Part shown: positions 14,900-18,049 of the stretch, in pieces
Layout of the letters: each line of letters starts with the position of its first letter
How positions within the stretch are numbered: the first letter of the stretch is position 1
NCBI RefSeq assembly: GCF_003990725.2
Contig: NZ_CP030065.1
Coordinates: forward strand, 1 to 64,000
DNA length: 64,000 bases
From: Halorubrum sp. PV6
Lineage (GTDB): Archaea > Halobacteriota > Halobacteria > Halobacteriales > Haloferacaceae
Direction of reading: 5' to 3'
Translations under genes and position numbers: made by a program
Notes under the pieces: model-generated
The model's input: the letters and a program-made list of their open reading frames with translations, nothing else
Database searches by the model: none
Told to the model about the DNA's origin: nothing

Positions 14900-15109
14900 T
14901 TAAATCTGATAGGTGCTATTAACTCGAGGGAAACGCTGCTATCCCTGAAGAACGTGAAACAAGATATTGGGCGCAAGAGACCGATAAGGATTCCGTGCCA
15001 TCGGGCACGTTCTGTTGACTGGGCCATGTGCGAAAAAAGTCGATCCATGGGCGCTACAGCCTGGATGCCGCGCTCCGCGGCATCCGGGAAAGCCCGAATA
15101 GGTGAATCT
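14900..15109. other. Gene-free spacer with stem-loop
   Basis: No gene is supported. A perfect 10-bp stem GGATGCCGCG/CGCGGCATCC with a 3-base loop lies at 15063-15085, about 165 bases after the exchanger stop; it has no T-run after it. Confidence 0.4.
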
Positions 15110-15471
15110 GGGTCTGTTGAAATCCTCAGCAAGTGATATATTCTGACCCAGCTGCGATTAATACAGACGGTGGACTTACTGTCTCCTAACGTCCCCTGAT
15201 AGTACATGAGCGGGGAAAGCAAGACAGGACCGAGCGGGAAAGACACGGGAATAGGGATGGCGATTGGACTTGCGATTGGGGTCGCTATCGGTTCTGCTAC
15301 AAATAATATCGGACTGTGGCTCGCTATCGGAGTGGCAATTGGTGCTGCAATTGGTGTCGGACTGAGTAATCGGGAATAGAACTGTATAATTCTTGATTGC
15401 GGAGTAGGCAGATCTACTGACCAGCTGTTTCACACGAGAACCTGTCTGAAGAAGAGGATTTCAACAGAGCC
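15110..15471. mobile_element. Cargo-bearing mini-element A (362 bp)
   Basis: Begins GGGTCTGTTGAAATCCTC and ends GAGGATTTCAACAGAGCC, i.e. inverted repeats with one mismatch in 18. It is flanked by a perfect 8-bp direct repeat GTGAATCT (15102-15109 and 15472-15479). Beyond the short inverted repeat the two ends differ, and each matches one end of element B (17505-18049). The only gene inside encodes a 57-residue membrane protein; there is no transposase. An 8-bp duplication and a GGCTCTGTTG end are compatible with IS6 or IS1595 type transposases, but the mobilising enzyme is not identified. Confidence 0.85.
15206..15379 (+). CDS. Glycine-zipper mini membrane protein
   Basis: A 57-residue protein: a polar N-terminus (MSGESKTGPSGKDTG) then two hydrophobic stretches with regular small-residue spacing (GMAIGLAIGVAIG and WLAIGVAIGAAIGVG) joined by SATNNIGL. 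This is a glycine-zipper hairpin in the membrane; similar short proteins exist widely and their functions are poorly known. It lies wholly inside mobile element A and is its only gene. The Gly/Ala/Ile periodicity supports real coding. Small glycine-zipper proteins may form channels or bind membranes, but nothing here decides. Confidence 0.65.
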   Translation: MSGESKTGPSGKDTGIGMAIGLAIGVAIGSATNNIGLWLAIGVAIGAAIGVGLSNRE

Positions 15472-15561
15472 GTGAATCTCTACTTCACGTGCTGGCCTCC
15501 CGAGTCACACGAACGCCTCTCCAAACGATGATGACCACTGGCCGGGCAGACAGACGAGGGA

Positions 15562-15592: not shown

Positions 15593-15754
15593 GGTCGGTC
15601 GGAGCCTTTCTTTAGCATCTGCTATCGCTAGACAGCGACCGCACCGCACACACGTTTCGACCGCCTACTGGCTGTGAAACGAACAGATCCCCGGACGGCG
15701 AAATCATTTTGCCGCTAAACGTGGTTTGGTCCGCTAGCAGCGTTTCAATAGGTG

Positions 15755-15811
15755 AAATCCTCTTCTTCAGACAGATTTTACCTGAAACAGTCGGTCGATG
15801 AGAGCTACGTA
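15755..15811 (+). repeat. Solo left-type end of the element A/B family
   Basis: GAAATCCTCTTCTTCAGACAG followed by TTTTACCTGAAACAGTCGGTCGATGAGAG (in two parts) matches the left end of element B, including the inner CGGTCGATGAGAG. The outermost GGCTCTGTT is missing, replaced by TTTCAATAGGT. Confidence 0.55.
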
Positions 15812-15856
15812 CAGATCGCTAACCCGAGGGATAGCCTATATCGAATTATATCAACC

Positions 15857-15997
15857 AGCCTTGTTTAGACGCTCCCGACGGCTGCGGTTAGTTGCTCTCT
15901 TGGATGAACTGAATCACTCCAAAAGTAGCTCTCTACCCGATCTCGTTCGTGGGATAGCGACTGTAGAACACGAACTGCACCGCGTCTAAACAAAGCC
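15857..15997. mobile_element. MITE-like element with GTTTAGACGC ends
   Basis: AGCCTTGTTTAGACGC (15857-15872) and GCGTCTAAACAAAGCC (15982-15997) are inverted repeats matching at 14 of 16 positions around 109 bp. No clear target duplication. A short open frame crosses it but looks incidental. Just outside, 16003-16018 matches (inverted) a sequence near 28230, probably the end of another decayed insertion sequence. Confidence 0.55.
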
Positions 15998-16148
15998 CAC
16001 CCTCTGTATTCAGCACGGCTCCCAGAACAGATTACTAATTGAGAATTTCAATGGAGCCCAATTGCTCTATTTCAATTATCCGGTCCACAGCTATATGTAG
16101 GTAGGAAATGAACTTTCACGATAACATCGGAGAGGCGTTATAACCACA

Positions 16149-17504: not shown

Positions 17505-18049
17505 GGCTCTGTTGAAATCCTATTCTTCAGCCATATTCTCACCTGAAACATCCGGTCGATGAGAGTTGCTTCGAATGCCGTAATTTAAGACATTTGGATG
17601 AAACGAACTCAACATGCCCTCCCCAAAGCGTGGTTATATTGCAGCGGCGTTGGTGCTGATTGGCATAGGTGGATTTGCGTATTCGGTGGTCCTGATCGGT
17701 CAGGTCTTAATTGGGGCGGGGTTCACGCTTTCAGCGCTTGTTGTCGCGGCACTGGTGTACTACGGCGATGCTGAACGTCACACGCTCACTCGCGCTAAGG
17801 TCGCTGTCACAGTTGTCTATGGCGTTTTTACGGGCCAGCTGCCGGTGGCTGTCATCGCTGCCTGTGTTGTCTACCTCTCTGCGTGGCTCACGGGAACTGA
17901 CAGCCCGCTCAACTCACCTGACACAGAGATATTCCCGGTTACACAAACGACTACCGATGAGTCGGAATACACTGATTGACAGCCTTGGTCTCTTGTATTG
18001 ACCGCGACTGCGTCGAAATATGTCACTTTCTGAGTATTTCAACAGAGCC
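17505..18049. mobile_element. Cargo-bearing mini-element B (545 bp)
   Basis: Starts GGCTCTGTTGAAATCC and ends ATTTCAACAGAGCC (14-bp perfect inverted repeat), flanked by a perfect 8-bp duplication GAATAATC (17497-17504 and 18050-18057). Its left end (TTCTTCAG...CCTGAAACA..CGGTCGATGAGAG) is homologous to the right end of element A read inward, and its right end (CTCAGAAAGTGACATATTTC read inward) to A's left end, so the two are the same family in opposite orientation. It carries only a 121-residue membrane-protein gene. Confidence 0.88.
17614..17979 (+). CDS. Small multi-pass membrane protein (element cargo)
   Basis: A 121-residue protein with three to four hydrophobic helices (about residues 8-28, 27-48 and 63-92) and a polar, Thr/Asp-rich C-terminal tail ([20 protein letters not shown]). 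No family recognised. A TATA-like TAATTTAA at 17581-17588 lies about 29 bases before the ATG, as expected for a leaderless haloarchaeal transcript, so the gene has its own promoter within the mobile element. It is not similar in sequence to the cargo of element A, although both are small membrane proteins. Confidence 0.65.

Follow-up and report, generated by a model that had tools for sequence, protein, structure and literature searches.

Mini-element A of Halorubrum sp. PV6 is very probably a mobile insertion cassette (MIC), a transposase-less derivative of the ISHla2 group of insertion sequences (IS) that kept its passenger gene. It measures 362 bp and lies in the window, the whole 64,000-nucleotide stretch analysed, which comprises positions 1-64000 of replicon C2 (300,774 bp; NZ_CP030065.1). 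The features of a MIC are present: IS-type ends on both sides, a passenger coding gene and no transposase, insertion as a unit with a target-site duplication (TSD) of the cognate length (8 bp), and a cognate autonomous IS with the same ends. The IS5-type DDE transposase that marks the IS5 family and its ISHla2 group is encoded by the partner and not by element A, which, having no transposase gene, is a derivative and not an IS. Nor is it a MITE, a class that is short and non-coding, because its open reading frame (ORF) is under purifying selection.

In the proposed scheme, the parent transposon runs from a 52-bp left end through the transposase gene, the GGTCAATACAG border, and a single variable passenger gene to the right-end module; the cassette has no transposase gene, and its short left-end module is joined straight to the border. 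An ISHla2-group transposase acting in trans, most likely the agent that mobilises element A, would recognise the common ends and insert the cassette with an 8-bp target duplication, and the 57-aa gene would move together with its own upstream and downstream sequences.

Boundaries, insertion, and copies of element A

A sequence-only reading had placed inverted ends at 15110-15471 and bordered them with a perfect 8-bp duplication around a unit without a transposase. The coordinates proved exact, with 18-bp arms agreeing at 17/18 positions, the duplication GTGAATCT occupies 15102-15109 and 15472-15479, and the only ORFs wholly inside encode 57 aa (+) and 85 aa (-). When replicon C2 was scanned for inverted 18-mers (at least 16/18) separated by 100-3000 bp and flanked by a perfect 8-bp repeat, five places were found, four of which share the ends of element A, while five mononucleotide shuffles of the replicon yielded none.

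The same reading had proposed looking for empty sites with a single target, and these exist in several Halorubrum genomes. The joined flanks with one GTGAATCT align without gaps over 300 bp at 92-95% identity in L197 (G117), L202 (G141), L204 (G120), and L208 (G127); the alignments to L209-L211 contain no more than a single small gap. An intact empty site carrying one GTGAATCT identifies element A as a genuine insertion, and it inserted as a unit.

Copies of the cassette occur at four different sites in three species with identical boundaries, 92-96% identity, and lengths of 357-362 bp, namely C2:15110 and C2:282343-282699 in this genome, G131 (L038; another Halorubrum), and G065 (L039; another genus). 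Matching 8-bp flanks were sought at the other three copies and none were found, which leaves the window copy as the only one with a perfect duplication; the mismatch elsewhere probably arose when the many similar ends later recombined with one another, or through decay. Of the 30 best matches to element A, 23 are on the 300-kb replicon and seven on the 2.74-Mb chromosome.

Table 1. Positions in the window of element A, its parts, and two neighbouring cassettes
Feature	Position	Strand	Remarks
Left target-site duplication GTGAATCT	15102..15109	.	Identical to 15472-15479; single copy at empty sites in other Halorubrum
Left terminal inverted repeat GGGTCTGTTGAAATCCTC	15110..15127	+	17/18 vs right arm; same terminus 52 bp 5′ of ISHla2-group transposase genes
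Left-end module, 59 bp	15110..15168	+	52/59 vs Halorubrum cassette consensus
Cargo-border motif GCGATTAATACAG, consensus GCGGTCAATACAG	15154..15166	+	Directly behind transposase stop codon in ISHla2-type elements
Conserved upstream block CGGTGGACTTAC	15168..15179	+	~27-37 bp before ATG; kept in homologues outside the element
Cargo gene for the 57-aa glycine-zipper protein, a predicted transmembrane hairpin of two helices	15206..15379	+	dN/dS, PF13488, AlphaFold2
Right-end module, 65 bp	15407..15471	+	50/65 vs consensus; type common to right ends of many ISHla2-group transposons
Right terminal inverted repeat GAGGATTTCAACAGAGCC	15454..15471	-	17/18 complementary to left arm
Right target-site duplication GTGAATCT	15472..15479	.	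Identical to left copy
Decayed cassette, adjoins element A	15745..16058	-	Right-end module at 15745, left-end module at 16058, TSD absent
Second intact cassette, TSD GAATAATC on both sides	17505..18049	-	Ends + TSD; 2 kb from element A
121-aa 3-TM (three-helix membrane) protein gene, cargo of cassette 17505-18049	17614-17979	+	

The 57-aa cargo gene

The small ORF is a real gene under purifying selection. Simple Nei-Gojobori counts, made on a short gene, gave dN/dS values of 0.09-0.45 in all 55 pairs among eleven haloarchaeal copies, and neither values near 1 nor frameshifts were observed among the copies; one homologue, L034, has a stop inside the reading frame. The product had been described as a 57-residue glycine-zipper membrane protein, a description that the selection and the predicted two-helix hairpin bear out. 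AlphaFold2, working from a four-sequence alignment, predicts helices at residues 9-32 and 35-56 with a mean pLDDT of 77. Family libraries offered on function only sub-threshold glycine-zipper matches (PF13488 at E=5e-4, below that family's cut-off) and weak PHROGs matches. The gene is presumably expressed, and the block CGGTGGACTTAC is plausibly a BRE/TATA-type promoter that would give a leaderless transcript.

A survey of 170 genomes of the family located homologues of the gene at 14 places, at 67-100% identity; the gene lies mostly on DNA that is plasmid-like or mobile. Distant bacterial relatives of the protein at ~44-46% identity, with candidates confirmed only against the stretches scanned, include some in Chloroflexota (L032, L033). 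The sequence-only reading had called the unit a non-autonomous element with a host-type gene; it is non-autonomous and its gene is real rather than a chance frame, yet "host-type" is too strong, since the gene is mostly on plasmid-like or mobile DNA and ISHla2-type elements with the same ends carry passengers too.

Several homologues (L040-L046) have no recognisable intact ends, and at L031 a 125-bp gene-less mini-element lies 11 bp downstream of the gene, as might be seen if the 57-aa gene had a mobility or selection of its own and had come to lie between two unrelated end remnants by chance. This is very unlikely, as the four copies of element A move as one 357-362-bp unit whose left and right modules are of the correct type and orientation. 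The homologues without intact ends share DNA similarity with element A over approximately positions 52-323, and inner remnants of the end modules persist beside L040 and L044, so some of these homologues may be decayed cassettes. Other repeats, of the TGCTGAATAGAG type, flank the homologues L040 and L041 (G042, G039) and may mark another sort of mobile carrier for the gene.

ISHla2-group transposons and sibling cassettes

The autonomous partner of element A, which the earlier reading had suggested seeking by its ends, is likely an IS5-family transposon of the ISHla2 group. Its transposase is a 273-aa DDE protein (PF01609) that scores 216 bits against NF033579, 'IS5 family transposase' (transpos_IS5_2; cut-off 140), and is annotated on pHLAC01 of Halorubrum lacusprofundi as 'IS5-like element ISHla2 family transposase'. 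The terminus GGCTCTGTTGAAATCCTC lies 51-52 bp upstream of the transposase start in 25/30 Halorubrum loci and at -52 in all ten named plasmids examined, which represent ten genera; a right end was identified in seven of these plasmids, six of them with a perfect 8-bp duplication. Perfect 8-bp duplications at the right-hand terminus were also found in nine Halorubrum elements (L228, L229, L231, L239, L241, L248, L145, L300, and L306). ISHla2-type elements therefore make TSDs of the same length as that of element A. In this genome, the sole ISHla2-type transposase above E 1e-60 (C2:70259-71077) has an in-frame TAG, which makes the present mobility of element A doubtful; it may be stranded now, or may be moved by a transposase entering on another replicon.

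In these transposons, ∼300-1600 bp separate the stop codon of the transposase gene from the right end, and the gene located there is almost always a different one. The passengers of 26 distinct transposase-bearing elements fall into 19 families, with five elements lacking a called ORF, and the transposases themselves are mostly 92-100% identical (about 95%) despite the differing passengers. An automatic rule assigned 13 of the 19 passenger families to membrane proteins or lipoproteins, a count from which a few more lipoproteins are hidden by trimmed starts. In three ISHla2 copies of H. lacusprofundi the passenger is one and the same 57-aa membrane protein, whose sequence is not related to that of the window protein; a fourth, L295 (G121:C1:341600-344600), carries a 233-aa passenger with a PGF-CTERM motif at its end. 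This passenger appears to be Hlac_3088, a transposon passenger with PGF-CTERM that is reported to be highly expressed in virus infection and has been proposed as a virus-exclusion factor (PMC10544981). The ISHla2-type elements L230 (G152) and L298 (G122) have a long cargo region.

Element A does not stand alone: dozens of further single-gene cassettes in Halorubrum lie between the same ends, one of them 2 kb away (Table 1). Replicon C2 and ∼80 stretches chosen for holding an end, not for duplications, were scanned with profiles of the end modules (∼59 bp on the left, ∼65 bp on the right), and the genes lying between paired ends were surveyed as the sequence-only reading had proposed. The sampled Halorubrum DNA yielded 98 end pairs within 3 kb, of which 88 are left/right pairs in inward orientation. 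Flanking repeats agree at 8/8 positions in 18 of the 88 and at 7/8 in four, against a chance expectation of ∼0.001 pairs for 8/8. Flank searches found contiguous uninterrupted sites for several sibling cassettes, including the joined flanks of 17505-18049 in G122, G136, and G140 at 87-90% identity. The 121-aa cargo family of that cassette recurs in another Halorubrum, at L148 2132-2729, with its own perfect TSD AAACGATC. Next to element A, an inverted 25-bp match (15439-15463 / 15753-15777) stems from the right-end module of the decayed cassette.

The cargo of the cassettes is enriched in small membrane proteins and lipoproteins. Among 42 cargo families called by codon usage, 24 were predicted to be membrane proteins or lipoproteins, compared with 7 of 55 size-matched annotated genes of pHLAC01 (Fisher p=6e-6), an effect whose size is approximate because the predictor was a simple hydropathy window with a lipobox rule and the control a single plasmid; ORFs called in pHLAC01 spacers gave 0/13. 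Other cargo includes a cold-shock-domain protein (C2:106860-108000) and, by sequence reading, PIN- and AbrB-type pairs, lipoproteins, and many small membrane proteins. The cassette at C2:156985-157743 (L105), with a perfect TSD CTACGGCA, holds a HicA toxin gene and a gene for a DUF7387 protein, and is thus a toxin-antitoxin-like pair in the form of a minimal mobile cassette.

Transposons and cassettes are linked by common cargo. In four transposons, cargo is shared between transposase-bearing and transposase-less forms at 85-97% DNA identity: L249 877-1273 corresponds to cassette E35 46-442 at 97%, the cargo of L237 to that of E47 at 92.5%, and part of L241 to E89 at 85%, while L230 holds two cargos in a row, each of which is also found alone in a transposase-less cassette (E45, 95.5%; E16, 86%). 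The similarity starts at the transposase stop codon in L249/E35 and L237/E47 and ∼30 bp past it in L230/E45; the L230/E16 match lies far downstream of the stop codon because the E16-type gene is the second cargo. A motif related to GGTCAATACAG (at least 9/11) stands behind the stop codon in 23/32 transposase-bearing elements, and in 65/80 cassettes a GGTCAATACAG-related motif marks the inner edge of the left-end module; the cassette figure is partly built in, as the end profile covers the motif region. A second border motif, GGTCAATACGCAG, precedes the right end in 33/80 cassettes and in only 2/32 transposase-bearing elements, counts that give no support to a direct repeat around every cargo. 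Given the common cargo, the stop-codon junctions, and the border motif, the cassettes are best described as the same transposons minus the transposase gene. The inner half of the left module of element A departs from the ISHla2 left end after ∼20 bp, and no ISHla2-type transposon with the window's 57-aa passenger was found; an origin of element A by loss of the transposase gene would therefore be argued by analogy with these pairs.

Two other IS families were considered as the source of the ends. Transporter ISs with passenger genes are classically found in the IS1595 family, and one 1939-bp element, E22 (L117), has a 309-aa IS1595-type protein between matching ends; descent of element A from this family has a very small probability, as the IS1595-type loci examined show no constant distance to such ends, which are present only at the query locus, 333 bp upstream, with the few other nearby ends scattered. 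The E22 protein was accordingly rejected as the partner and looks like cargo or nesting.

An IS6-family derivative is most improbable, even though the ends GGCTCTGTTG and the 8-bp TSD look IS6-like, archaeal IS6-type termini can start with GG and make 8-bp TSDs (PMC6807381, PMC7986276), and at C2:286789-287714 such ends enclose an IS6-type transposase. That transposase belongs to a 692-bp unit, bounded by ends of its own (GGCGATGTTAAGTTAAG / GGTCGTGTTAACTTAAGC), that recurs intact elsewhere on the plasmid without cassette ends. For the copies seen, this refutes the IS6 reading, and the candidate (C2:286972) was dismissed as the autonomous partner, since it is part of a separate IS nested within an otherwise empty cassette. 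At this locus (L112) the cassette measures 234 bp, and the IS is also present at C2:110620, 217822, and 239522.

A decayed ISHla2-type copy or chance arrangement, with the transposase deleted and the 57-aa frame not a gene, would suit the homologues outside ends, which show that parts can persist without the element, and the decay of many neighbouring elements, but is scarcely credible given the dN/dS values in all 55 homologue pairs, the identical boundaries at four sites together with the empty site, and related proteins down to ∼44% identity in Chloroflexota. The sequence-only reading had allowed that the ends might always accompany a transposase and the small gene be a chance reading, and this came half true: the ends do occur with a transposase, and the gene is not chance.

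Known systems and a possible role of the cassette pool

The interpretation of element A as a transposase-less ISHla2-group cassette has its closest parallel in MIC231 of Bacillus cereus, where IS231-MIC231 elements are modular (De Palmenaer et al. 2004, as cited in PMC3129680). Common to both are IS ends, the absence of a transposase, a passenger, a cognate IS with the same ends, and modular exchange with passenger-carrying ISs. MIC231 is bacterial and belongs to IS231/IS4, whereas the group of element A is the archaeal, IS5-family ISHla2, with a presumed mobilisation; here, moreover, there are very many cargos per genus with a strong bias to small membrane proteins and lipoproteins. Transporter ISs (tIS), e.g., of the IS1595 family (Siguier 2009, as cited in PMC3129680), carry a single additional gene that has no part in transposition, and by this definition the autonomous partner is itself a tIS, but it is of the IS5 family and its passenger differs in almost every copy while the transposase is ∼95% identical. 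ISHla2 and ISHxa2 (IS5-like; Halorubrum lacusprofundi and Halopiger xanaduensis) have the same termini and 8-bp TSD length as element A and, in many copies, its right-end module, whereas element A has no transposase and a diverged inner left end.

Haloarchaea also have coding mini-elements. The ISH2-type elements of Halobacterium and Haloquadratum (HqIRS32) carry a non-transposase ORF (PMC3119063), and like element A they are transposase-less; they are ∼520 bp long with one conserved ORF family, whereas the family of element A holds a pool of different cargos. The earlier claim that a gene-carrying mini-element is unusual in archaea must be tempered accordingly, given these elements and the dozens of sibling cassettes. 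Haloarchaeal MITEs (MITEHarch3 in ISfinder; Haloquadratum MITEs) are likewise short and non-autonomous with IS-derived ends, but are non-coding, whereas element A carries a selected gene.

A search of the open-access full-text literature found no description of the ISHla2-type cassette pool. Transporter ISs and MICs are known as categories from bacteria, as single cases; the archaeal scale, the cargo turnover, and the cargo bias look new. A single IS5-type group, present on plasmids from numerous haloarchaeal genera, apparently serves as a carrier whose one slot takes interchangeable genes, and its relatives that lack a transposase apparently disseminate the same cargos in the form of minimal cassettes. 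If true, this would be an archaeal counterpart of integron gene cassettes, by function and not by mechanism, and a route for small, mostly unannotated envelope genes between species. A broader and distinctly tentative suggestion is that ISHla2-group transposons and cassettes might form a haloarchaea-wide cargo-swapping system, in which a near-constant transposase is followed by one slot behind TGAGCGGTCAATACAG (left border at the stop codon) that is repeatedly refilled, mostly with small membrane proteins and lipoproteins, and that the pool may serve envelope-level defence or competition, e.g., virus exclusion. How cargo enters the slot, what role the border motif plays, and whether cargo protects from viruses are testable questions raised by these data.

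Elsewhere in the window, at 2859-2984, a mini-element of 126 bp represents a different end family: its inverted ends are TGCTGTGTTGAATAGCGG, its perfect 8-bp duplication is CTCGAAAC, and a second, related copy follows it directly.
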